A DNA stretch of 64,000 bases from Salvia splendens (Eukaryota > Streptophyta > Magnoliopsida > Lamiales > Lamiaceae). The DNA is taken from positions 1-64,000 of the forward strand of contig NW_024599046.1 of the NCBI RefSeq assembly GCF_004379255.2, in the 5' to 3' direction. A program made the translations under genes and the position numbers. Below, piece by piece: positions 9,809-63,459 of the stretch. The notes under the pieces were generated by a model. That model was given only the letters and a program-made list of their open reading frames with translations, had not been told where the DNA came from and did not search any database. Numbering within the stretch: the first letter of the stretch is position 1; each line of letters opens with the position of its first letter.

Positions 9809-11701
9809 GAGCGTCCACGTGGTGCGGAATTCCCGGCGGAATTTCCAGCGAAATTCTCAAAAACACCTCCTGTCACGTCATAAGGAATTCCCACTGCACA
9901 GTGGCGGAATTCTCGAAGGAATTCCCACAATTAAAAAATTCACAAATTCACAAATTAAACAATTTCCGAAAGTAAGAAATTTAAGGAATTAAATAGTCGA
10001 CACAAATAGGAAAAAATATTCCATTAATAAAAAAAGAAAAGTACCTTTCACCAAATTAAAAAAATACATTTCAATAATGCTTCACTCCCACATCACGACG
10101 ACCTCTCCGCTGCCATACTTCTTCAATAATATCATTCTGGAGTCGAACATTGACTTGTTTTTGGCGCATGTCGGCGAATGCACGGACTCAATCGACATCG
10201 TCGTGGGGTATCCCCATGCGGACATTGTCAGTAGCCACGCCGTGGCTTGGACCCGCAGCATCAGCGTCCTCGTTGGTCCACTCAGTCAGTGCTGGACCTT
10301 TATCTTCGACAATCATGTTGTGCATGATAATACATGCGTACATGATGTCGACGATGCTGTCAACATACCACAGTCGTGCGGGGACCCTTCACTGCCGCCC
10401 ATCAAACCCTGTCATGTCCGCTCCACATCCTTGCGCGCTGCCCTCCTGACGTTGCGCAAATTATATCTTCTTTTCATCTGCTGGGCACCTGATCGTCTTC
10501 ACAAAGACGGGCCACATCGGGTATATCCCATCCGCCAAATAATAGCCCATGTTGTGCTGGTTGCCGTTGGCGACGAAGTTGACGGCCGGACCAACGCTCA
10601 TGCACTGGTCGTTGAAAGGGGCAACGACTGGAGGACGTTGATGTCGTTGTTCGACCCGGCTACTCCAAAATAGGCATGTCAAATCCACAACCGGTAGTCA
10701 GCTACCGCTTCAAGGATCATCGTGGGATTCTTGGCCTTGAAACCAGTAGTGTACATCCCTTTCCAGGCAGCGGGGGCAGTTCTTCCATTCCCAGTGCATA
10801 CAATCTATGCTGCCTAATATCCCCGGAAACCTGTGCTGATTCTCGTGCATATCCAGCAGAGTCTGACAATCTTCGGGGGTAGGCTTCCGAAGATACCTAT
10901 CCCCGAAAATCTCTCTAACGCCCTGACAAAAATACTTCAGGCAGTCGCGTGCAGTCGTCTCGCCGATGTGGAGGTACTCGTCGAACATGTCGGCCGAACC
11001 TCCATATGCCAACTGCCTAATTGCGGCAGTGCACTTCTGAATTGGCATGTGGCCGGGTTTACCAGCCGCATCCTCCCGCACCCTAAAATACCTGTATCGA
11101 CGCTCCAAAGCGCCCACGATACGCATAAAGAGCGGTCGATGCATCCTAAACCGTTGCCGGAATAGGTTCTCCTCAAACCGTGGCCCCGGCGCAAAGTAAT
11201 CCTCGTACAACTGCCTGTGGGCAGCGAGGTGATCCCGGGAGACTATAGTGCGACGATGGATGGGTCGAGGCACCGCCGGAGCCGCGGCCGCTAGTTCCTG
11301 CCTCTCAGCGGCCTCCCACACACGTGCGTGTATCATCCGCATCATGTGTTCATAATGTCCACCACCACCACCACTACCACTACCACTACCGGCCATTACG
11401 AATATATAAAAGAAATTTAGAGAGAGAGAAACTTGTTAATACAAGTGGTGCGAATGAAATGAAGTTCAACATGATGTATATATAGGAACCGAAAAAAAAA
11501 TATTTAATGCATTAAACGAGAATTCCACGGGCGTCAACGCAATGGCGGACGTCCGCGCGGAATTCCGCCGATGGCCGCGGAACAACGAATTCCTTCACGG
11601 AATTCCGTATCCGTGGAAGGGACGCGCAATGGCGGACGTCCGCCACGGAATTCCACACACCGGTGGGAATTCCGCGTGGACGTCCGCCATTGCGGATGCT
11701 C
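9809..11701. mobile_element. PIF/Harbinger element carrying only a (broken) transposase
   Basis: Ends GAGCGTCCACG and, inverted, TTGCGGATGCTC, flanked by TTA target duplications (9806-9808, 11702-11704). It is 1893 bp long. It encodes a decayed DDE transposase on the minus strand but no Myb-like ORF1, which canonical two-gene PIF/Harbinger elements have. Subterminal DNA is packed with GGAATTCC and GCGGACGTCCGC palindromes (9825-9930 and 11520-11690), plausible transposase-binding sites. It lies 16 bp from the neighbouring Harbinger element that ends at 9792. Confidence 0.88.
10077..11396 (-). pseudogene. PIF/Harbinger DDE transposase, frame-broken
   Basis: The first 228 codons (11396-10710) are open: a Gly/Ser-rich start, then a helical region and CTAAIRQLAYGGSADMFDEYLHIGET and LGSIDCMHWEWKNCP, the last holding the first catalytic Asp. 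After a frameshift near 10720 the protein continues in another frame with a stop, then GSNNDINVLQSLPLFNDQC (second catalytic Asp) and VGPAVNFVANGNQHNMGYYL (10590 region) to FVKTIRCPADEKK. Near 10430 an ARKDVER piece, where the third acidic residue sits, is followed by more frame changes before a recognisable C-terminal tail. At least three breaks make it inactive. The second copy in this window is at 55259-55844 plus 63578-64000. Confidence 0.85.
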
Positions 11702-32162: not shown

Positions 32163-32790
32163 TATTTATTTTTTAAGGATGAAGAATGTGGGCCAATTTT
32201 TAAATAAACTTGATGGATTGATCTGGATTTTACAAAATTTTGTTTTCGTGGAGTTGATAAGAATTCAGTATCGCTCGCTCTATTAGATACCTAATTTTTC
32301 GCCTCAAATCGTCATCAAATGCCTCTGAAACGATTTCAAAAGCCCGACGCAGGTAGATGATCTCACAGAACCACTCACCTATTTGGCTAATTAAGCCTCT
32401 GATTTTGAATCTTTCCTGTAACCCTTTTGTTGTTTCATCAGCTTTGTTATAAAATTTCTTCTTGAGGGTTGAAGTGTTCGGCAAAATGTTGCAATATGCC
32501 CTCCACGTGTTCGACGAAATTCCTCACTCAGATTCTTAATAAAATGGATACTAGTTTAACTTAACACTAACATTTTATTTCTCTCTTTATTTACGACCTC
32601 AATTTTAGAATACAAAGCTTTTCATGTCCGGCATAAAAATTCAGGGACACAAAACAGCATTAACCTTTTAAAAACGCCAAATTGAGATCATAAATGATCA
32701 CTAACCCCTTTTTCTCTAGTGATGTATAAGCTATTGATTCTTGAAACATTCACAAAGTGGTAATCCAAGATTCTGCCCATTTTTTTGCAG
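32163..32790. other. Intergenic or unresolved first intron of the 32791 gene
   Basis: No convincing gene. An 84-codon minus-strand frame (32230-32484) is compositionally plausible (RRAFEIVSEAFDDDLRRKIRY) but I recognise no family and it overlaps the region next to a PPR scrap. The sequence before 32791 ends in a T-rich tract and TTTTTTTGCAG, a good splice acceptor. Confidence 0.4.
32486..32542 (+). pseudogene. PPR-motif scrap
   Basis: The plus strand reads MLQYALHVFDEIPHSDS and a stop; HVFDEIPHSD matches the conserved end of a plant PPR repeat. It is far too short to be a gene. Confidence 0.4.
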
Positions 32791-33227
32791 CGTCCCAAGC
32801 AGAGAAATACCTGAAAAAAATCGGGCTAGGAAAGGAAGACCATCATTTCTGGAAGCAAGTAGGCAAAGCTCTGATAAGCACTTATGCTCTGTTCGGAGCG
32901 GTGTGGTTTTTGAACGAGACGTCGCCGTTTGGGTGGTGGACGCTGAAGCCGATGCCAAAGGAGGAAAAGGAGCTGGCCCACCTGTACGAGCGCCGCGAGT
33001 TCCCTTACCCGGCCGATGCAGAGGCGATGGAGGAGTTCGTTGCCAAGGGAGGGATGATCGGGACCACCATCGGCCCAAAAGGGATCGTCGAAACGGATAA
33101 AGATTCGTACAATTTTCAGAAGGATTTGCAGGACAAGAAGCTGGATCAAGAGTCTATGAAGCTGTGGATGAGGATGAGGAATGAGGTTCTTTCTGAGCTG
33201 CAACAGAAAGGATTTGATGTTGAATGA
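32791..33227 (+). CDS. Last exon of a conserved small plant protein with one membrane segment (first exon not found)
   Basis: The acceptor TTTTTTTGCAG precedes an open exon of 145 codons that begins in phase 1 and ends ELQQKGFDVE-stop. It has a predicted membrane segment (KALISTYALFGAVWFLNET, about residues 24-42 of the exon), then GWWTLKPMPKEEKELAHLYERR, given here only in part as a marker, then MEEFVAKGGMIGTTIGPKG and a charged helical tail. The composition is that of a real, conserved protein, and I recall similar unannotated plant proteins that are probably mitochondrial, but I cannot name a function. No ATG exon with a compatible donor is evident back to the transporter stop at 31249, so the gene is either split by a poorly visible tiny exon or truncated. 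Confidence 0.7.
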
Positions 33228-34311: not shown

Positions 34312-34707
34312 TACATTTTTTTACTAAAATAGTACTTATTAGCCAAGGTACATTATTAGACTAATAATCTACATTATTAAATGACATGTGACACTAATTT
34401 AACTATTAGATCACAAGATCCAATGAACTATAAGTGTTTTGATTTTGAACACTATTTTGCTTATAAATCTGAATATATCAATGTCATTATATCTCAATAT
34501 TTATCATTTTGTCTCATCTCATCTTGAACTCAGAAATAAATAAATAAATAAAAAATCAACAAAAGATAATATGATTGCTATAACAGTAGTATCGGTTTAA
34601 ACTCAAATCATAGCAACATTGGTTTGCGTTGCATACAACATGAATCAATAATATTATTGATACTAATTTTAAATATTTTGCCTCTACAAGGCATTAGCAA
34701 TTATTAG
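34312..34707. other. Intergenic, no gene seen
   Basis: AT-rich spacer between a MITE and the long inverted-repeat element. Its last eight bases, ATTATTAG, are the left target duplication of that element. Confidence 0.5.
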
Positions 34708-35493
34708 AGAGAAAATCGGGTTTATAGGCTACTTTGCCTTTAAAATTACGTAAATGTACCCATTTTGTTATCTATTCCATAAATGGGAAAAACGCCACTC
34801 TCGTTGGCGTGTTTTAAGTGAAAACGCCACCCGTATTGGCGTTTTACAACGTAAGTGTCGTCGTATTGCATGTACGTTGAAAAACGCCGACGTGGTTGGC
34901 GTTTGAACGAAAAACGCCAATCCCACTGGCGTGTTTTAAAAAACGCCAATTCGGGTGGCGTTTTTCGTGCCATCCGCCGTGAAAAAAAGGCCAAAAATTA
35001 TCCCAAGTTATACACGCCAATGGGATTGGCGTTTTTAAGTGAATTTTGAGTTAAAACGAAATGCACCCCAAGTGTTTGATGAAATGCCTCAAAGAGGATT
35101 CTGAGCCTTAGAATTCTGTTATTTTGTACGGTTATCAAGATAACATTTTAGCCTTGTTACTACTGTTATTAATGGGTTAATTTAAGCCAATCTTGTTTGC
35201 AGGAAGAGCTAGAAAACTAATGATCACATCTCCGATTCCAACAACCGCAACCATTGCTAAGGTTGGTTAGTTTCTCAATCACATGCTGAAATTAAACACA
35301 TGAAATATACTACTCAATTATCCATACATGATTTAATGGGAGAAAAAATGACCTTAGATGTTTGTGTTCTCTTCCTTATCTATACATGATTTTTGTGGTT
35401 CAAGCACAGAATGAGAAAAACATCAACAGAGAAAAATCAGCTACAAAAGTGAATTCATCATCCATGGCTGAGCAACGGCTGGCGGCAGACGAG
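34708..35493 (+). repeat. Left long terminal inverted repeat of the Pack-type element
   Basis: Matches 36140-36923 in reverse complement with only scattered differences, including one or two 1-bp indels. Six ACGCCA...TGGCGT palindromes lie at 34790-35035. Similarity stops after the codons for AADE of the captured peptide gene. Confidence 0.92.
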
Positions 35494-35547
35494 TCAGAAT
35501 GTCAGTTTCAACGTTGGAAAAAATTGAGCCAATTCATTTCACTAACT

Positions 35548-35675
35548 TAAAAACGCCATTCTCAATGGCGTTTTTCGTCGAACACGCCAACCCCAAGTGT
35601 TTGATGAAATGCCTCAAAGAGGATTTTGTCCTTGTCTTTTACATAGCACACCAAGTGTTTGATGGAATGTTTAAG
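35548..35675 (+). pseudogene. Spacer palindrome and repeated PPR-like scraps
   Basis: One more AACGCCA...TGGCGTT palindrome (about 35551-35575) is followed by two partial copies of the same PPR-like segment, QVFDEMPQRG (about 35590-35625) and QVFDGMF (about 35651). The first matches the scraps at about 35067-35100 and, inverted, about 36536-36570. Confidence 0.45.
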
Positions 35676-36064
35676 TGAGCTCCAGCCAGATTTTACATCC
35701 TAAACTTCGATGAAAACACGATTTGATGAGTCATAATTTACATAAAAACGTGTAATCTAAGGGGAAAAATATAGAAAATATGCTTCACATCACGGCTACA
35801 ACAAGCACATCATGAATTACATATACTAATTAGCATTAAATTAAAAGTTATGAAGTACAAAGAGTTAGATTAGATTGTGTCAAACATGCATCCGATAAAC
35901 TAATCATGCATTCAACATATTTTTGTTTACAAAATCTTAGTTTATCTAACACAAAACAAAAGTGGCAATTAACATAGTATTTAATTTCTACTTGTACACA
36001 ATATAGGATTGCTCTAGCTAATTTACATATGCATAGTTTAATTATTCCATAAAATTGATGAAGC

Positions 36065-36223
36065 TTAGTTTTGAATCGGAGGTTTTCTTCTTGCCTGAGA
36101 ATAGTCCATTCCGGCAATGTCTAGTATACCCGGATATGTCTCGTCTGCCGCCAGCCGTTGCTCAGCCATGGATGATGAATTCACTTTTGTAGCTGATTTT
36201 TCTCTGTTGATGTTTTTCTCATT
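36065..36223 (-). pseudogene. Captured final exon of a GOLVEN/RGF (CLEL) peptide gene
   Basis: After a splice-like TTCACAG (36229-36224) the minus strand is open for 52 codons to a stop at 36065. It ends MDYSQARRKPPIQN, which fits the GOLVEN/root-growth-factor peptide pattern: a sulfatable Asp-Tyr, basic residues, then PPI-x-N at the C terminus. The usual His before the last Asn is Gln here. The upstream part (REKSATKVNSSSMAEQRL...) fits the variable propeptide. A likely preceding exon (about 36430-36385, minus) has a stop and I see no signal peptide, so a working precursor is unlikely. The arm copy at about 35408-35493 repeats the first part only. The family assignment rests on the C-terminal motif. 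Confidence 0.6.
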
Positions 36224-36923
36224 CTGTGAATGAACCACAAAAATCATGTATAGATAAGGAAGAGAACACAAACATCTAAGGTCATTTTTCCTCCCATTAA
36301 ATCATGTATGGATAATTGAGTAGTATATTTCATGTGTTTAATTTCAGCATGTGAATGAGAAACTAACCAACCTTAGCAATGGTTGCGGTTGTTGGAATCG
36401 GAGATGTGATCATTAGTTTCTAGCTCTTCCTGCAAACAAGATTGGCTTAAATTAACCCATTAATAACAGTAGTAACAAGGCTAAAATGTTATCTTGATAA
36501 CCGTACAAAATAACAGAATTCTAAGGCTCAGAGTCCTCTTTGAGGCATTTCATCAAACACTTGGGGTGCATTTCGTTTTAACTCAAAATTCACTTAAAAA
36601 CGCCAATCCCATTGGCGTGTATAACTTGGGATAATTTTTGGCCTTTTTTTCACGGCGGATGGCACGAAAAACGCCACCCGAATTGGCGTTTTTTGAAACA
36701 CGCCAGTGGGATTGGCGTTTTTCGTTCAAACGCCAACCACATCGGCGTTTTTCAACGTACATGCAATACGACGACACATACGTTGTAAAACGCCAATACG
36801 GGTGGCGTTTTCACTTAAAACACGCCAACGAGAGTGGCGTTTTTCCCATTTATGGAATAGATAACAAAACGGGTACATTTACGTAATTTTAAAGGCAAAG
36901 TAGCCTATAAACCCGATTTTCCC
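36140..36923 (-). repeat. Right long terminal inverted repeat of the Pack-type element
   Basis: Inverted copy of 34708-35493. The captured peptide-gene reading frame runs out of this arm into the spacer. Confidence 0.92.
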
Positions 36924-36931
36924 ATTATTAG

Positions 36932-37296
36932 AAGCAATTGAACAAAGGTATCAGCCTTTCAACTTTGCTGGCTCTTTTGCTCCAAATTCATCACCGCAAG
37001 TACCAATATCAGTTGAAGCAGCCGAGCCTAAGGATCGTAGCGTACCAATGTCACGTTTATTTAATTAATATCGACTCGCACTCCTTGAGGTTAGCTACTG
37101 AAATTCTCGATGCACTTGCTGATCATTTCTTTGTTGCCACTGTTCAGTAGTGATTTTGCCTTGTGTGTGCCTTCATTATTGCATCTGCCCCTTTGGATCG
37201 AGGATCGGATCTCGTACATAAAGTAGGATTGTTTGATTTCGCGCAAAAATCGTCAATCAAATCAGCTTGACATTTACTTAACAATGCAACTGCAAG
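36932..37296. other. Intergenic, possible decayed coding sequence
   Basis: The plus strand from about 36941 reads QPFNFAGSFAPNSSPQVPIS and onward to a stop near 37065, and another frame ends LATEILDALADHFFVATVQ. These look more protein-like than chance AT-rich sequence, but I recognise no family. They may be remnants of a host gene that the Pack-type element landed beside. Confidence 0.3.
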
Positions 37297-47188: not shown

Positions 47189-48648
47189 GAGCATCCACAA
47201 TAGGGCGGACGAAGTCGGACGATAGGGCATCCTCCGCCCACTGTGGGCGACGCGGACGATGGAACGCGTTTTAATTTTTTTTTATTTTAAAATTCAAAAA
47301 TTTTGTTATATATATTCCCTTGGCACTTTTCATTTGTAACTTTTCGATTCACATTTCAACTCTCAAATTACGTTATAAAATGGATTCCGGTGGATACTCA
47401 AGTCCCAGTAGCTCGATATTTGGAGATGGCGCACGGTGGCCGGGTACACAACCTGGCTAATATCGGTCGTTCGATGCCAACACGCAGTACGATCCGGAGT
47501 TCAGTACGGATTCGTACGGTCTCTCTGACATGGAGTCGTCTCCAACTCACCCTGCCTCTTCCCGTCGCGCCGCCGCCGCCCCCTCCGACAACTTGTGAAG
47601 AGTACGCCCCCGGCCGTACGAACTACCAGCCGGATGAAACCCTCGTCTTGGCAAGGTGTTGGGTGGATATATCGGAGGACCCGATATTTGCGAACAACCA
47701 GAAGCAGCTCGCGTACTGGGATCGCATCGCCGAGGGCTACAATGAGGCGAAGCCGCCGAGCGCGTACAAGCGCCAACGGGAACAGCTCCGCAAGCACTGA
47801 GATCAGGTGAAGAAGCAAGTCAACCTCTTCGCGGCGGAGTACGAGAAGTGCTCGAGGGATCAGGGAAACGGCGAGAGCTTGAGCGACGTGCGCGATAGAG
47901 CGTTGTTGTCGTATCAGTCCATGTTCGGCGACTTCAAGCATTTCAACATCCGGGCGCTCTTGAGGGACAAACAGAAGTTCCAAAGCGGGATTCTACACAC
48001 TGGTGTGGTGAAGAGGACGAAGACCACCGACACTGGTGGTTACACGACCAGCGAAAGCGGAACTCGTTCGGTGGACCTCAACCAGACGTGCACGGAGGAA
48101 AAGAGTTTCGGCACACCGATGCCCTCCCGGCGGCGTCCCATAGGCGTCAAGGCTGTGAAGAACAAGGGGAAGGCGAAGGCAACATCCTCCTCGACCCCCC
48201 CCCCCCATCGCCGATCCCGACCCCGACCCCGACGACGATCCAGGTGACACACGCCTACGCGGATTTGGCAACGACCTCGATGGCGCGGACGTTGTTGGAT
48301 ACGCACAGCGCCCTTATGAAGTGTACGGATCCGGCCCAAGCCGAGCACCTCCAGAGGTTGAGCGATGAGTTGAGCCGGAAGTTGTGGCTTTTGTAGGATA
48401 GACATTTTTTTATTTCTAACTCGTGTAACCTTTTTTTTAATCAATGAGAATTTTTTGCCGTTCTTTTAGTTAATCGTTGTGTTTTTTAATAAGTTTGCAT
48501 TTATATATTTGAAAACAATAGTAAAATGATTAGGGCGCGCCTTAGGGCGCCCCACTGCAGGTGGAAGGGCAGGAGGATAAAATGCTGACGTGGCGGTGCA
48601 TAGGGCGGACTTTAGGGCGCGCCTTAAGCTGCCCCATTGTGGATGGCC
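47189..48648. mobile_element. PIF/Harbinger element carrying only ORF1
   Basis: Ends GAGCATCCACAATAGGGCGG and, inverted, CCCCATTGTGGATGGCC, flanked by TTA (47186-47188, 48649-48651). The 1460-bp interior carries a decayed Myb-like ORF1 and no transposase at all. Confidence 0.85.
47380..48396 (+). pseudogene. Harbinger ORF1 (Myb-like / NAM-associated C-terminal type), decayed
   Basis: Starts MDSGGYSSPSSS at 47380. It then breaks at a TAA near 47459 and continues as YRPFDANTQYDPEFSTDSYG in the same frame. A TGA near 47799 (RKH-stop-DQVKK) corresponds to a Trp codon in the sister copy at 53819-54849. Identifiable pieces are RCWVDISEDPIFANNQ, YWDRIAEGYNEAKPPSAYKRQ, VNLFAAEYEKCSRDQGNGES and the Pro-rich linker after KGKAKATSSS. 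These match the plant Harbinger ORF1 protein that partners the transposase in DNA binding. At least three breaks. Confidence 0.8.
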
Positions 48649-53458: not shown

Positions 53459-53602
53459 ATTGTGGGTGCCCGCCATCGTCTGCGCCCTACGCCCACACCT
53501 AATGCATCGTCCGCGGAAGAAGCGCGGACGATTGTGGGTGCCCGCCATCGTCTGCGCCCTACGCCCACATCTAATGCATCGTCCGCGGAAGAAGCGCGGA
53601 CG
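53459..53602. repeat. 72-bp tandem duplication in Harbinger subterminal DNA
   Basis: Two adjacent units starting ATTGTGGGTGCCCGCCATCG at 53459 and 53531, differing at about one base. Confidence 0.9.
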
Positions 53603-53818
53603 ATGGACTATTGTCCGCGCCATCGGGCGCCTCATTGTGGACTCGGCGGACGATTGCCTATCGTCAGCGCCATCGGGTGCCCCATTGTGGGCTCGGCGGA
53701 CGATGGGCGCGGACGATGGCATGCGTTTTTTATTTTTTGTATAAATACCTCTACCCCACCTTCATTTGTAACATTTCATTTCACGATTTCACTCTCGAAA
53801 CTCACATTTACTACGAAA

Positions 53819-54849
53819 TGGATTCAAGTCCAATAGTCCGATGTTTGGTGAGGCGCGTTGGCCGGGTACAGAACCCGACGAATATCGGCCGTTCGATGCC
53901 AACACGCAGTACGATCTCGAATTTAGTACAGAATCGTACGGTTTGGATGACATGGAGCCGTCTCCAAACCGACCCGTCGCCCCCTCCCACCGCGCCGCCG
54001 CAGTCGCCGCCGCTTCCGCCCCCGCCAAAAAGAAGTGGATCTGGCACCGCGCGAAAAAGTTGCCACCTCCGGGCAATTGTGAAGAGTACGCCCCCGGTCG
54101 TACGAACTAGGTGTTGGGTGGATATATCGGAGGACCCGATATTCGCGAACAACCAGAGGTAGGTGACGTACTGGGAGCGCATCGCCGAGCGCTACAATGC
54201 GGCGAAGCCGCCAAGCGCGTACAAGCGCCAACGGGAGCGGCTCCGCAAGCACTGGGATCAGGTGAAGAAGCAAGTCAACCTGTTCGCGGCGGAGTACGAG
54301 AAGTGCTCGAGGGAGCAGGGGAGCGGCGAGAGCTTGAGCGACGTGCGCGCTAAAGCGCTGTTGTCGTACCAGTCCATGTACGGCGACTTCAAGCATGAGG
54401 CCATCTGGACGCTCTTGAGGGACAAGCAGAAGTTCCAAGGTGGGATTCTGCACACCGGTGCGATAAAGAGGATGAAGACCACCGAAGCTGGTGGTTACAT
54501 GAGCAGCGAAAGCGGAACTCGTCCGGTGGACCTCAACCGGACGTACGAGGACATTGAGAGTTCCGGCACACTGATGTCCTCCCTGCGTCCCATAGGCGTC
54601 AAGGTTGCGAAGGCCAAGGGGAAGGCGGCGGCGACATCATCCTCGACCGCCGCCACCCCATCGCCGATCCCGGTCCCGATCCCGACCCCGAGCCGGACGG
54701 CCGCCGCGTATGAGTCGTTGGCAACAACCTCGATGGCGAAGACGTTGTTGCAGACGCACAAGGCCCTCAAGAAGTGTACGGACCCCGTCGAAGCCGAATA
54801 TCTTCGGGGATTTATCGATGAGCTGCTCCGCAAGTTGGGAATTGCTTAG
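53819..54849 (+). pseudogene. Harbinger ORF1 (Myb-like), decayed second copy
   Basis: Related to the ORF1 at 47380-48396. The N-terminal part (FGEARWPGTEPDEYRPFDAN...) is readable at 53841-54110. A deletion of about 30 bp, seen against the sister copy, removes the segment after APGRTN. A TAG follows at about 54162 (FANNQR-stop). From 54163 the remaining 228 codons are open: YWERIAERYNAAKPPSAYKR, HWDQVKKQVNLFAAEYEKCS, then a Pro/Ser/Thr linker and a C-terminal helix (KCTDPVEAEYLRGFIDELL). It keeps the Trp codon that is a stop in the sister copy. Confidence 0.8.
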
Positions 54850-55844: not shown

Positions 55845-57427
55845 TGTCACACCTTAACCCCTCTAACGTATACTCATATAATAAATAAATCCCTTATCAT
55901 AAAAGCAATCAATACACGTGTATAAATCATAGAACACCCATATTATATAAGTTCAAACCAACACTTATCCGATACATATTTCAAAATATCATGTAACGTA
56001 GTGGAACCCTCTCACCACTCTATATACTATACATTTATCTACATGCAAAATGATAAGGAGGAGAAGGTTGCCAATATGCGTCAGCCGCCGAACCTGATAA
56101 CACGTGGAGTTCCTATGACCCATGTCAGTCAAAACTTTACTGCTATCTTATTCCTGAAAAATTTAGTGGTTTATATGAGCCTCAACTCAGTATATATAAA
56201 TTTCCACCTTTAGTCTCACATGATACAAACATCAAGCATATTCTTTTATCAATACATATAATCAGAAACAATATATAACATAATTTAAAAACAAACCAGT
56301 TCATATTCATATGCATATGCCACTCTATTCAGTTTATTATTCTGTAACAGTCAAGCATGGTATCTGCCCGGGATTCCTCTATGACCCAAAGGTCTCTCTG
56401 TAATTGGACTCATAGGTCCCTCTGTATTTGACCCGAAGGTCCCTCTGTAATTGGACTCATAGGTCCCTCTGTATTTGACCCGAAGGTCCCTCTGTATTTG
56501 GACTCATAGGTCCCTCTAAAATTTCAGATCCAGTACAAGGCTGTCACAGATCCTCTTTAATCCAATGATTCACATAAACAGTATCATAAACATATCCTTT
56601 GCACCAATAACATATCCATATCATATTCCATCAAATTATCCAATATATCTAAACAAACACGTCCATTTCAGCAATCAAATATTCATATCATATTCGACCA
56701 TCAAAATCAAACAATTCATAATCATATCAATTTCACACCATATAATCCAATAATTCACTCCAATTCAACATATAACAATCAACCACATAACACATGTAAA
56801 ACTAAAAGTGTGATTTATACACACCTGATTATAGCATATTCTACTCAAGCTTTCGACATCACCTCACACTATATGACCTTCTCCTCGCCAAAATGAATCG
56901 GACAGTAGTTCCCTTACTTTTCCTTTCCCCCTTTTTATTTTTCTCCCTCCTCCACAAGTTTAAAATATAGAAGCTATATAAATGATTTAGTGTCGATTAT
57001 GCGACCGACTCATCATAATTTTTTTTATATTATTTAATAACCAATGTTGCTTTACGTGTCCAAATTGTAATAATACACAAATTTCGTATCCTTACACGTA
57101 GTAAAATCATAAGCCACGCAATCCTTAAAGGATTTATAAAGAAACACCTTAAATCATATATATATGTATTACACGTTTCACACACTTCTATATATTTTAA
57201 TTTATTTACTATAAACATGCAATTTATATATAAGTATGTACCTTAATAGTATATTGCACATATACACACGTATTGCAAACACATTTAAAATTAATTATTT
57301 CATATGTATAATATTTTTGTTATACTATATATATATATATATATATTTGAAAAATTACTCTATGGTACACACTTAACATGATGTACAATGACGAAAAAAA
57401 TGTATGTTTCGGGTTAGGGATGTCACA
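55845..57427 (-). repeat. 3' LTR (1583 bp)
   Basis: Pairs with 61681-63572. By eye they differ at only a few percent of positions, apart from one 285-bp insertion in the other copy. A 47-bp unit (GACCCGAAGGTCCCTCTGTA...) is tandemly repeated at 56385-56518. Confidence 0.93.
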
Positions 57428-57445
57428 ATTCTTCCCCTCTTTAAG
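57428..57445 (-). promoter_or_regulatory. Polypurine tract of the retrotransposon
   Basis: On the minus strand AAAGAGGGGAAGAAT directly precedes the 3' LTR, as required for plus-strand DNA priming. Confidence 0.75.
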
Positions 57446-57550
57446 AATTTTGTCCGCAAAATTCGCTTTTCCCTTGAGTTAATGCATCCAATAAAATCAC
57501 TAACCCGTAAACAGATATGGATAGTTCTTTCTCATTTTTTCTTCAGTTTC

Positions 57551-58096
57551 CTAAGTAGCCTCTTCGACCCTGTGATTCCGCCAACTAACTTTAACTATTG
57601 GGATCTCTTTTCTTTGCAATTGTTTAACCTGTCGGTCTACAATATTAACTGGTTCCTCTATGTAACTCAGATTCTCAGAAATCTGTATATCAGGATCTCT
57701 CAGAACATGTGACGGATCAGACCAATAACGTCGAAGCATACTGACGTGGAAAACATTATGAATCTGCTCTAACTCTGGAGGTAATGCTAACATGTACGCT
57801 AACGGTCCAACTCTTTCGAAAATATCATATGGCCCAATATAACGAGGACTCGGCTTACCTTTATGTCCAAATCGCATTACTCCTTTCCAAGGTGAGACTC
57901 GCAAGAAAACTTTATCTCCAACCTCATATTCCATCTCTTTCCGATGCTGATCATAATAACTCTTCTGTCTGTCTTGTGTCGCCTTCAGTCTGCTTTTAAT
58001 GATATCAATCTTAGAAACAATTTCCTGGATAATTTCTGGTCCTTCTAGAATCTCTATATACTGAACTTCTACATTTTCTACCATACAATGTCTCAT
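57551..58096 (-). pseudogene. Integrase C-terminal part of a Ty3 polyprotein
   Basis: An open stretch of 181 codons with the typical integrase tail: QDRQKSYYDQHRKEMEYEVGD (in part), VFLRVSPWKGVMRFGHKGK, SPRYIGPYDIFERVGPLAY and HNVFHVSMLRRYWSDPSHV. This lies downstream of the catalytic core, which is degraded (58100-59150). I see no clear chromodomain after it. Confidence 0.85.
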
Positions 58097-59154
58097 ACAG
58101 TGTCATAAATGAAACTGGTTAGTATACGCAAACTTTATCAGCAGAATATACTCATCCCATGAACCCTGAAATTCAATAACACGAGCACAAAACATTTCTT
58201 CCAACGTCTTTATAGTTCTCTCTGACTTACCATCTTTCTAAGGGTGAAAAATATTACTAAAATATAATCATGTCTCCGTAGATAGTAAATTGCGGACCTC
58301 TAGACATAAAAGATAGAATACCATATAATCGTGCTGCATCTTTCGCGTACTTTTCAGCTAAGTGATATAACGAACAACGCCATCTTATAGGTAAGAAATG
58401 TACTATCGGTGACCCTGTACCAAAATTTATGGTAATGTGTTCTCATTTTGAGACTAGAATAGTTAAAGGCTTCAACAAACCTGTAGGTACACACTGTTAT
58501 GCTTTAACCTGTTGACATATCAAACACCTTGAAACAAACTCTACGACTTTCTTCTTCCTCTTCGACCAACAATAATACTCTAATAATGATATTTGTATAT
58601 ATGTAATCACTCAGCTTGACTTGTAACTCAAAGCATCTGTAACAACATTCGCCTTTTTAAGATGGTATTACGATGGTGTAATCATATTCTTTAAGAAACT
58701 CCATCCAATGTCTTAGTCTCATATTCAACTCCTTCTAACTCATCAAATATTTCAATCTGTCATGATCGGCCGAAATTCAAAAAGTCTCTCCATGCAGATA
58801 AGAATGCCAAATCTTCAAAGGAAAACAACACTGTTAAATCCAGATCAGAAATAGAATAAGAAGCTTCATGTACTCGTGATTGTCCTTGACGCATAAGCAA
58901 TAAACTTTCCATTTTTTTAATAGAAGAAAACCAAATCCACGTTGCAGTGCATTACTGTAAATAACATAATATCATATACCTGTGGAAATAACCAATATAG
59001 ACGACATAGTCAATTAATGCTTCAACTTATCAAAATTGTTTTGACATGCTTCACTCCATATAAGAGGAGAACTCTTCCGCAATAACTTCTTAATCAATTC
59101 AACCATAATCGAGAATCATTTTCAGTTGACAAATACTTCAATATTCTGTATATC

Positions 59155-60111
59155 TAGAGATGCCCACCGGTTCCGATTCCGGTTCCGGCGGTTAACCGTC
59201 GAACCGGAACCGTGGCAATATTCCCGAACCGGAACCGTCGCAATTCGGGTCGCGGTCCGGTTCAGGTTCAAGATATTTCGAACCGGAACCGTCACCGAAC
59301 CGGCGGTTCGGGACGGTTCGAAACCGGCGGTTAACCACGGAACCGCCGGTTCGGGTGCGTATATCGAGGCATGGGGGATGGGGCCGGCGGCGGCAGCTTT
59401 TCAGCAGCAAAACCGGCCGGAACCGCCGGTTTTTCGGCGGTTAACCTGCGGTTAACCGTGAAAACCGGCGGTTTACCGCCGGTTCAGTGGCTTTCGAGGC
59501 GGCGCGGAACACGAGGCGACAATGGCGCAGCTTTTGCAGACGGTTCATTGACCGAACCGGCGGTTTTTATCCCGGAAACTGGCGGTTTTGTCTCGGAAAC
59601 CGGCGGTTCCGGCGGTTTTCCGCCAAAACCGCCGATTTTGTGAAATTTCAAATTTTTTTTTTCAAATTTCATGTTTTTTTTACTTACTTTCCGAGTCCGA
59701 CGAGGCGACGACACTTGTAAATTATATTACATTGTTGTATGTTGTTGTATTGTATACTTATGTATTGTAAATTGTAATGTATCGTTGTCCGTTACAACTC
59801 AAAATCAATAAAATTTATTTCATTTTCTCCTTATTCGTCTTATTTGTGCTTGAATTATGCATTGTCTTGTTCCGATTTGTTGTATAAAGCCAAATTTCAA
59901 ATTTTTAAAAAAAAATAATAATTGAACCGCGAAACCGCCGGTTCGAAAACCGGAACTGCCAAAACCGCCGGAAAACCGGCGGTTCCGAACCGGAACCGGA
60001 ACCGCCGGTTTTCGAACCGGAACCGGAACCGTGAAATAGCCTCACGGTCCGGTTCCGGTTCCGCCTCCGCCAAAATCGGAACCGCCGGTTTTCGAACCGT
60101 GGGCAACACTA
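59155..60111. mobile_element. Non-autonomous hAT element inside the retrotransposon
   Basis: 957 bp, flanked by TGTATATC on both sides (59147-59154, 60112-60119). Ends TAGAGATGCCCACCGG and, inverted, CCGTGGGCAACACTA. Both subterminal regions are dense arrays of CCGGCGGTT/GGTTCCG words in both orientations. No transposase. Confidence 0.92.
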
Positions 60112-60368
60112 TGTATATCCATTTCCATTCTTCAACCTGATACCATGTGTCCCAATAATACCATATGATCTAGCTAGACTTACACTTACCCAACCTTGCA
60201 ATACGATGTTTATCTTGCAAAACTTGTAATACTGACTGCAAGTTATTAACATGCTCATCTGTATTTTGTGAAATATAATAGTAAGTCAATAAAAATAATC
60301 ACTAAGTGATATAGGAATGGTTGAGAGACTTCGTTCATCAATGCCATAAATAATTGTAGGTGCAATAG

Positions 60369-60650
60369 TTAATTTGAAAGGCATAACCAAAACTCATAAT
60401 AGTCGTACTGAGTTTTAAATGGTGTCTCTGCAGTATTCTCTTTAGCTATCTTCAACTGATGGTATCTTGATCGAAAATCCGTACTCGAAAACAGTGGCAT
60501 ACCTTGAAATTGATCAAATAAATCTTCTATTCTAGGTAATAGATATTTATTCTTCACAGTCACTTGATTCGACTTCCAATAGTGTATATAATGTCGCAGT
60601 GTGTCGTCCTTCTTCTTCAAAAATAATATTGATGTTCTCCAAAGTAAAAT
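60369..60650 (-). pseudogene. Reverse transcriptase fragment of the Ty3 polyprotein
   Basis: The minus strand reads VTVKNKYLLPRIEDLFDQFQ, FSSTDFRSRYHQLKI and YDYYEFWLCLSN, matching the early part of Ty3 reverse transcriptase (family: NKYPLPRIDDL, DLRSGYHQI). The catalytic DD region that should follow is not recognisable and frames are broken around it. Confidence 0.8.
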
Positions 60651-61299
60651 ATTGAGTCATACATATCTCTTGTCTGACAACTCTTGTAACTGTTTCTTAA
60701 ACTCCTGAAATTCTAATAAAGACATTTGATAATTGTGAATATAAATAAATGTAGTACCTGGTAGTAACTCAATAGTGAAGTTTGTCTCTTGATCAGGTGA
60801 TACTCCAGAGAGATTTCCACTTCGGATAAATCAAAAAGCCGGTGTAGCTAATATAAAACAAGTTGCAATTGATCGATACCATTAAATATCACTCGAACTC
60901 GTCTCGATGATTATATTAACATTTCTTTAACATGACAAGCTGCCTTAGTTCGATGAAGTGACAACCAATTTATACCCGTGATAATACCAAATTTGTGTAT
61001 GAACAAGGGAATCAATATCCGCTGGCAGCTCAACTGAATTAACTCACACCACGCAGTCTAGATAAACCGTGTATACTGAAACAATGACAGCTCATAATCA
61101 ACAACAAACATAGTTCTGGTTTAAAGACAGAATCTCTCTTTACTTCATCATCACAATACACTTCTTGCATATATTTATCATTAAATTCTCTAGGAAAATC
61201 GTCTGAACTTAGTACCAAAGGTTGTATAATAGCTTGTGGGACTGTTTCTGCCCAATAGTAAATATTGCTTCAAAGAAGAGACACTGTTTAATCAAAACG

Positions 61300-61460
61300 T
61301 TCTTCTGACATACAACTCATCTGATTGAACACATGTTCTCTATCCTTTTCAACCATATCTCAGCCTCGGCCGGATCAGTAGTCTCATAAAGTCAACAATT
61401 CCATTTTTCGGAGTTCTCTAAAATTTCTACCTTTGTGCCCCATCATTGGTCCATGTACTT
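61300..61460 (-). pseudogene. gag remnant
   Basis: The minus strand shows MMGHKGRNFRELRKMELLTL, then a stop, then AEAEIWLKRIENMFNQM-like sequence, resembling the start of Ty3 gag (family: EAExWLxxxExIF). Heavily broken. Confidence 0.55.
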
Positions 61461-61660
61461 TTTGTTCCAAAAGCCTAGGTAATCCCCATATGATGCAACA
61501 TGTATACGAAATGTTTCTACTATTAATTGATGATGCAGGGCGGCTGACCCTTATCTCCTCAGTGACCCATGTTTGTGATAATTGAAATGCAAATGAAACA
61601 TCTAACCGAAATGTATCATATGATATTCATGAATGCCATGTCCCAGCGGGATTCTATCCC

Positions 61661-61673
61661 CGCTCTGATACCA
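61661..61673 (-). promoter_or_regulatory. Primer-binding site, initiator-Met tRNA type
   Basis: The minus strand reads TGGTATCAGAGCG, the standard plant site complementary to the 3' end of initiator tRNA-Met, 7 bases after the 5' LTR. Confidence 0.9.
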
Positions 61674-61680
61674 CCTAAAT

Positions 61681-63459
61681 TGTCACACCTCAACCCCTCT
61701 AACGTATACTCTTATAATAAATAAATCCCTTATCACAAAAGCAATCAATACACGTGTATAAATCATAGAACACCCATATTATATAAGTTCAAACCAACAC
61801 TTATCCGATACATATTTCAAAATATCCTGTAACGTAGTGGAATCCTCTCACCACTCTATATACTATACATTTATCTACATGCAAAATGATGAGGAAGAGA
61901 AGGTTGCCAATATGCGTCAGCCGCCGAACCTGATAACACGTGGAGTTCCTATGACCCATGTCAGTCAAAACTTTACTGCTATCTTATTCCTGAAAAATTT
62001 AGTGGTTTATATGAGCCACAACTCAGTATATATAAATTTCCACCTTTAATCTCACATGATACAAACATCAAGCATATTCTTTTATCAATACAAATAATCA
62101 GAAACAATATATAACATAATTTAAAAACAAACCAGTTCATATTCATATGCATATGCCACTCTATTCAGTTTATTATTCTGTAACAGTCAAGCCTGGTATC
62201 TGCCCGGGATTCCTCTATGACCCGAAGGTCTCTTTGTAATTGGACTCATAGGTCCCTCTGTATTTGACCCGAAGGTCCCTCTGTAATTGGACTCATAGGT
62301 CCCTCTGTATTTGACCCGAAGGTCCCTCTGTATTTGGACTCATAGGTCCCTCTAAAATTTCAGATCCAGTACAAGGCTGTCACAGATCCTCTTTAATCCA
62401 ATGATTCACATAAACAGTATCATAAACATATCCTTTGCACCAATAACATATCCATATCATATTCCATCAAATTATCCAATATATCTAAACAAACACGTCC
62501 ATTTCAGCAATCAAATATTCATATCATATTCGACCATCAAAATCAAACAATTCATAATCATATCAATTTCACACCATATAATCCAATAATTCACTCCAAT
62601 TCAACATATAACAATCAACCACATAACACATGTAAAACTAAAAGTGTGATTTATACACACCTGATTATAGCATATTCTACTCAAGCTTTCGACATCACCT
62701 CACACTATATGACCTTCTCCTCGCCAAAATGAATCGGACAGTAGTTCCCTTACTTTTTCTTTCCCCCTTTTTATTTTTCTCCCTCCTCCACAAGTTTAAA
62801 ATATAGAAGCTATATAAATGATTTAGTGTCAATTATGCGACCGACTCATCATAATTTTTTTATATTATTTAATAACCAATGTTGCTTTACGTGTCCAAAT
62901 TGTAATAATACACAAATTTCGTATCCTTACACGTAGTAAAATCATAAGCCACGCAATCCTTAAAGGATTTACAAAGAAACACCTTAAATCATATATATGT
63001 ATTACACGTTTCACACACTTCTATATATTTTAATTTATTTACTATAAACATGCAATTTATATATAAGTATGTACCTTAATAATATATTGCACATATACAC
63101 ACGTATTGCAAACACATTTAAAATTAATTATTTCATATGTATAATATTTTTGTTATACTATATATATATATATATAGGGTTTTGATCCATGCAAAAGCAT
63201 TCTTAATACAAAAATGCAGAACCAAGCATACAAAAGTCATTTTTAGGTCATTGTAAGCTTATTTTTACGTCATTATAGTAAGGATGACATGAAATGGTCT
63301 TAACATGACCTCAAATCCAAAGTTTATAATATGACCTAAAACTGCTTTACAATGACCCTCCGTGTTTTTGTTTAATTATTGACCATTGGATTGTCAAATC
63401 TCATGGTCAGGATTTGGTCTGGATTTTGTATTGAGATCAAGTTTTGTATTGATCATTTT

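Follow-up and report, generated by a model that had tools for sequence, protein, structure and literature searches.

Structure of the element

The window analysed here, a stretch of 64,000 nucleotides of Salvia splendens DNA (contig NW_024599046.1), contains a 2215-bp element at 34709-36923 that combines long inverted arms, a set of short palindromes, scraps resembling PPR repeats and part of a gene for a secreted peptide of the GOLVEN (GLV)/RGF type (Table 1). The element is bracketed by 9 identical base pairs, ATTATTAGA, with the tenth base mismatched on either side. At the spacing of the element, 9-mers are equal at just 1 of 61767 positions in the 64-kb window, the sampled background for spacings of 2.0-2.5 kb being 10 of 842900. 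An earlier sequence-only reading of this locus had proposed a flanking duplication of 8 bp and an element running from 34708 to 36923. The duplication itself and the right-hand end stand, whereas the 8 bases are the first 8 of 9, and position 34708 still belongs to the duplication, as its final base, the element itself starting at 34709.

Table 1. Features of the Salvia splendens element and its flanks (positions within the 64-kb window)
Feature	Position	Strand	Remarks
Target site duplication, left copy	34700-34708		9 bp, ATTATTAGA; exact match to right copy
Left arm, terminal inverted repeat	34709-35493	+	785 bp; outer end begins GAGAAAATCGGG; holds GLV exon 2 and first part of exon 3
Six imperfect palindromes, left arm	34792-35032		ACGCCA-N7-TGGCGT; one with a substitution
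PPR-like scrap 1	35065-35103	+	frame APQVFDEMPQRGF, then stop
GLV exon 2, left arm	35203-35261	+	59 nt; frame RARKLMITSPIPTTATIAK open
GLV intron 2 copy, left arm	35262-35409	+	148 nt
GLV exon 3, first part, left arm	35410-35493	+	first 84 nt; cut at arm end
Probable older left-arm remnant	35545-35686	+	full palindrome 35553-35571, one half unit, PPR-like scraps 35590-35628 and 35648-35686
GLV exon 3, complete	36065-36223	-	52 codons and stop; ends DYSQARRKPPIQN; Pfam GLV1-2 match
Right arm, terminal inverted repeat	36140-36923	-	784 bp; from outer end reads GGGAAAATCGGG
GLV intron 2	36224-36371	-	148 nt; GT...AG
GLV exon 2, right arm	36372-36429	-	58 nt; frame broken, as an A run (between 36419 and 36420) is one base shorter than in left arm
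PPR-like scrap, right arm	36529-36567	-	mirror of 35065-35103
Six palindromes, right arm	36600-36840		mirror of left-arm six; one with a substitution
Target site duplication, right copy	36924-36932		9 bp, ATTATTAGA; exact match to left copy

The arms, both of which start with G(A/G)GAAAAT, are nearly identical, as the earlier reading had recognized. Their alignment as 785 and 784 bp spans 784 columns, with 6 transitions and 4 transversions (10 substitutions) and 1 single-base indel (K2P 0.0129), and a repeat search found them 98% alike over 514 and 283 nt. Plant mutation rates are in the range of ~7e-9 to 1.3e-8 per site per year; by this rough reckoning, the arms would last have been made alike ~0.5-0.9 million years ago. 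Beyond the six palindromes of each arm, one more lies inside the element. A pattern search permitting 3-9 bases between the ACGCCA and TGGCGT halves recovered 11 exact palindromes in the window, all of them inside the element and all with a 7-base spacer (100 shuffles: mean 0.00), while two further palindromes, with one substitution each, are mirror partners across the arms. Many DNA transposons are known to carry short repeated motifs in their terminal inverted repeats (TIRs) or subterminally (PMC3310237), and these palindromes are possible transposase-binding sites.

Within the window, the 21-base terminus of the element does not recur even with up to 3 mismatches, and a BLAST comparison of the element with the rest of the window gave only five matches of 18-23 bases, each with E 0.41, which we take as chance. 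A protein search for other copies among annotated proteins, using two translated arm frames, gave 5 candidates, none of which scored, and is a weak test as arms need not code. An Rfam scan of the window produced no match, and a literature search for TTGGCGTTTT together with transposon returned nothing on a plant transposon, judged by title.

The captured GLV gene fragment and the PPR-like scraps

The peptide motif MDYSQARRKPPIQN, followed by a stop codon, is located on the minus strand inside the exon 36223-36065. This exon matches the Pfam GLV1-2 family with an E-value of 2e-6 (29.0 bits, with a cut-off of 28.1), as does the open frame 36301-36068 (E 5.5e-7), and a protein search recovered 9 relatives, other Salvia precursors among them, with the Pfam GLV1-2 domain in 9 of 9. 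The GOLVEN/RGF identity suggested from the sequence alone had been set beforehand as one of three points to be tested, and both the Pfam match and the relatives support it. Likewise borne out is the suggestion that both arms absorbed part of the peptide gene: each of them contains exon 2 together with 84 nt from the start of exon 3, such that 143 nt (59 + 84) of GLV exon sequence are mirrored. Searching the PDB with the GLV exon yielded ribosomal-protein rows only (E 1.5-1.9), and a Pfam row for HTH_Tnp_Tc3_2 obtained with the same exon (E 0.13, below the cut-off) was taken as chance.

The residues listed for the GLV/RGF/CLEL motif, namely D1, Y2, P10 and N13 (PMC8329595), are all in place in the C-terminal 13 residues, DYSQARRKPPIQN. 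The C-terminus reads PPIQN in the element copy as against PPIHN in 8 of 8 other relatives; hence, the penultimate His-to-Gln exchange that had been remarked upon earlier is private to the element copy, occurring in 0 of the 8 others. Arabidopsis has H or N at position 12 and a liverwort has S (PMC8329595), and since this position varies across the family the exchange alone need not kill the peptide; further, the last Asn, for which a receptor contact has been described (PMC6749341), is retained. In comparison with the GLV1/GLV2 (CLEL6/CLEL9) precursors, the element copy shares both the portion contributed by exons 2 and 3 and the C-terminal peptide DYSQARRKPPI-N, but it differs in having no visible signal-peptide exon, a frameshifted exon 2 in the right arm and Gln for His at position 12.

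The scraps that the earlier reading had termed PPR-like comprise three plus-strand copies, one of them only 64% alike, and the right-arm mirror copy, with a VFDEMPQRG stretch found in both arms and once inside the element. When a 27-residue frame was compared with the PDB, 15 of the 17 matched sequences were named PPR (the other two being an 'alpha solenoid protein' and RsbQ), with a score summed over weak repeats; matches to single repeats were weak (i-Evalue >1000 in the three entries shown), and a 38-residue PPR-like frame had no Pfam match at E 1. That the scraps derive from a PPR gene is plausible and only moderately supported.

Insertion site and the rest of the window

If the flanks are joined without the element (34690-34708 and 36933-37069), they read as the open frame QLLEAIEQRYQPFNFAGSFAPNSSPQVPISVEAAEPKDRSVPMSRLFN, of 48 codons to the stop, after a possible splice acceptor, with the insertion point a few bases into this frame. 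As the joined flanks read open in this manner, the element may have inserted at the beginning of a last coding exon of a host gene, which it would interrupt. Two matches of the downstream flanking frame were taken as chance: one to a Salmonella SafD fusion in the PDB, whose E-value of 1.6e-8 is summed over three repeated domains with i-Evalues of 0.25 to 33, and one to Pfam Hikeshi-like_C (E 0.089, below the cut-off).

Upstream, at 32480-32690, the presumed first intron of a gene at 32745-33227, several relatives of which bear the name 'homeobox prospero', contains a PPR-like VFDEIPHSDS and one AAAAACGCCA half unit. This stretch may be what remains of an older, related element; with 12 occurrences of ACGCCA/TGGCGT outside the present element, chance could account for the half unit by itself. 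The window also houses other repeats and mobile sequences. A transposase-like frame at 10710-11435 on the minus strand matches Plant_tran (E 4e-12), which we take to be of the PIF/Harbinger type. Two related plus-strand stretches, 47291-48247 and 53575-54849, have CWVDISEDPIFANNQ and KPPSAYKRQRE in common, the latter stretch with weak Myb/SANT-like and NAM-associated Pfam rows below the cut-off. Finally, the same tandem-repeat block followed by a 39-bp repeat occurs at both 56382-56757 and 62218-62593, with an SH3_Tf2-1 frame at 57551-58102 (E 3e-24); the region 56382-62593 is probably a Gypsy-type retrotransposon, with the repeat blocks as its two LTRs.

Assignment to the Mutator-like elements

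What separates Mutator-like elements (MULEs) from other DNA transposons is a target site duplication of 9-11 bp, and the TIRs of MULEs typically measure 100-500 bp (PMC3310237). The present element has an exact 9-bp duplication and arms of 785/784 bp, longer than is typical. It encloses a host gene fragment, namely the GLV exons 2 and 3 with their intron. The element has 25 frames of at least 35 aa, the longest measuring 90 aa; none of the 10 scanned against Pfam matched a transposase family with an E-value of 1 or lower, consistent with the earlier observation of no transposase. TBP-TOTE rows in Pfam for arm frames (E 0.027 and 0.05) were below the cut-off and rejected. The duplication, the arms and the GLV exons 2 and 3 with their intron together uphold the initial view of a Pack-type transposon with a captured GLV/RGF fragment. 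That reading had left the superfamily unplaced, which we now amend: given the 9-bp duplication and the long arms, our analysis supports a non-autonomous MULE, specifically a Pack-MULE, in every respect that could be tested, an assignment drawn from duplication length and arms as opposed to homology to a known MULE.

The first count of 8 bp would instead have suggested a hAT-type element. We consider this to have practically no likelihood, as 9 bp match exactly on both sides and a duplication of 8 bp would give the left end an unpaired A; long arms, moreover, are atypical of hAT. It is the duplication length on which we reject hAT, the 9 bp found here departing from the 8 nt of annotated hAT elements (and CACTA elements having 5 nt; PMC8903248). 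Set beside the Pack-MULEs of rice, maize, tomato and Arabidopsis, the element is alike in its long inverted arms, 9-bp duplication, host exons with an intron inside and no transposase found, and is distinguished by its Salvia host and its peptide-hormone gene cargo, with no difference in kind. A literature search for a Pack-MULE with a GLV/RGF/CLE peptide gene returned no mention of Pack-MULEs among the matches listed.

Origin of the gene-bearing arms

The two ends of the element differ in how far they reach into the captured gene: within exon 3, the left arm goes no further than the first 84 nt, whereas on the right the sequence continues through the stop codon. For this reason, it is well supported that the left arm was copied, in truncated form, from the right end, i.e., that copying proceeded from right to left. 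The inner piece at 35545-35686 is oriented as the outer left arm, and is probably the stump of an earlier left arm. MULEs with extended TIRs, or with tandem or solo extra TIRs (Ferguson and Jiang 2012, PMC3310237), offer a close parallel, in that they too present acquired sequence in the arms, a one-sided internal TIR-like piece and short TIR motif repeats. However, the inner piece of the present element measures ~140 bp, with one full palindrome and no inner terminus, and it falls short of the rule by which external and internal TIRs of such MULEs are to be alike over at least 100 bp (PMC3310237), the best inner stretch being 39 bp at 97% and the others below 60 bp among the matches listed. 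In that study, acquired gene sequence within extended MULE TIRs is already reported with reference to others, and the acquisition mechanism is described as not yet understood (PMC3310237); for Pack-TIR elements in animals, gap filling and template switching have been argued (PMC8277862).

Against this background, we advance the following scenario. Beside its right end, the element would have captured the 3' part of a GLV1/2-type gene, beginning in intron 1 and reaching the stop codon or beyond. The left end would then have been overwritten with the sequence of the right, perhaps by aberrant gap repair or a template switch between the ends; this rewriting would have placed the 143 nt of GLV exon into both arms and left a scrap of the previous left arm inside. 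A transposase made elsewhere would have moved the element into its present site, with the 9-bp duplication. While the order of these events, the mode of copying and the mobilisation in trans are what we infer, we regard it as highly probable that the locus is a young non-autonomous Pack-MULE of Salvia (S. splendens or a very close relative) that captured the 3' part of a GLV gene, had its left end rewritten from its right, was mobilised in trans and carries a GLV piece that is dead.

Fate of the captured exons

The captured exons have a counterpart in the protein databases. When 36413-36372 is spliced to 36223-36065, the product equals, residue for residue, the best of the 9 relatives, the 66-aa S. 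splendens hypothetical protein SASPL_156427 (P0001), whose start is the ATG at 36413-36411, the next ATG after the frameshift. SASPL_156427 is either the element locus itself or an identical copy of it; as the window may be its very locus, it is no proof of a second copy. A protein search with an exon of the neighbouring gene included no named Salvia among the best 120 of 125 relatives and did not tie the contig of SASPL_156427 to the window; a literature search found no mention of SASPL_156427 or SASPL_117717. By its identity to the spliced transposon-borne fragment, SASPL_156427 is probably a mis-annotated pseudogene.

In GLV1/2 (CLEL6/CLEL9) precursors, a signal peptide mediates entry into the ER, followed by processing and sulfation (PMC7162652). 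Judged by eye rather than with a predictor, SASPL_156427, which begins MITSPIPTTATIAK, has no signal peptide. Among the 8 other relatives, likewise by eye, a hydrophobic leader is clear in four (P0002, P0003, P0004 and P0006) and less clear in P0005 and P0009; P0007 and P0008, from contigs of <1.4 kb, have none. The left-arm frame RARKLMITS resembles the RARKLVMNQ of the Handroanthus precursor P0004, pointing to the frameshift in the right arm as the derived state. With no signal-peptide exon and a frameshift, the GLV piece is most likely a dead pseudogene fragment that gene finders annotated as a small protein. The converse, a functional new gene built from the captured exons and producing a Gln12 variant of the GLV peptide, would draw on the splice sites and the complete exon 3 being open, on the retention of D1, Y2, P9, P10 and N13 in the mature peptide, on the variability of position 12 in the wider family (PMC8329595) and on the annotation of SASPL_156427 as a protein. 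We hold this to be very improbable, given that the captured part has, by eye, no signal peptide of the kind with which GLV1/2 precursors enter the ER (PMC7162652) and that, in the right arm, the frame of exon 2 is broken ahead of the annotated ATG.

More room might be given to a role as RNA, although this too we deem unlikely. In such a scenario, whose silencing effect the earlier reading had raised as a possibility, the element would be a natural hairpin-RNA locus at an early stage of inverted duplication: read-through transcription would give a double-stranded RNA of ~780 bp, and siRNAs from it, including those from the 143 nt of GLV exons 2 and 3, would silence the source GLV gene. The arms do have the necessary geometry, with 775 positions of the first 787 predicted to pair within 5 nt of register on the plus strand and 778 on the minus strand, as is expected of any long inverted repeat, and 576 of 765 left-arm 21-mers recurring in the right arm. 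There is precedent in Mu killer of maize, an inverted duplication of part of MuDR for which a hairpin RNA has been proposed (PMC3440606), and in miRNA genes that arose from inverted duplication and transposons (PMC3237417). Nevertheless, transposon ends suffice to explain inverted arms, and the 24-nt small RNAs from MULE arms in rice have been discussed as directing methylation of the element itself (PMC4858842). Both Mu killer and the Salvia element are inverted duplications in a Mutator context that could potentially be transcribed into a hairpin; however, Mu killer duplicates part of a transposase gene and silences MuDR, whereas the Salvia element duplicates part of a host peptide gene and its silencing is hypothetical. 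Moreover, Mu killer individuals with sense read-through failed to silence, those that did silence having antisense transcripts (PMC3440606). Finally, the next S. splendens GLV protein recovered by the search is just 66% identical. It is accordingly with little expectation that we entertain the notion of a Pack-MULE having turned a secreted-peptide hormone gene into an arm-borne inverted repeat, i.e., a mobile hairpin that would feed siRNAs against a GLV gene before decaying into a small-RNA gene. Were small RNAs to be found, gene capture would be tied directly to the model in which silencing loci arise by inverted duplication, and that on a peptide-hormone gene.

Returning to the Pack-MULE with a dead GLV piece, a caution follows for the use of the S. 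splendens proteome: the published 'hypothetical protein' SASPL_156427 very probably represents transposon-borne pseudogene sequence. As for the family, the element is a further, well-preserved Pack-MULE of an already described sort, and its value lies in offering a clean and young snapshot of Pack-MULE arms lengthening over captured coding sequence, in which the direction of copying can be read at a single locus.
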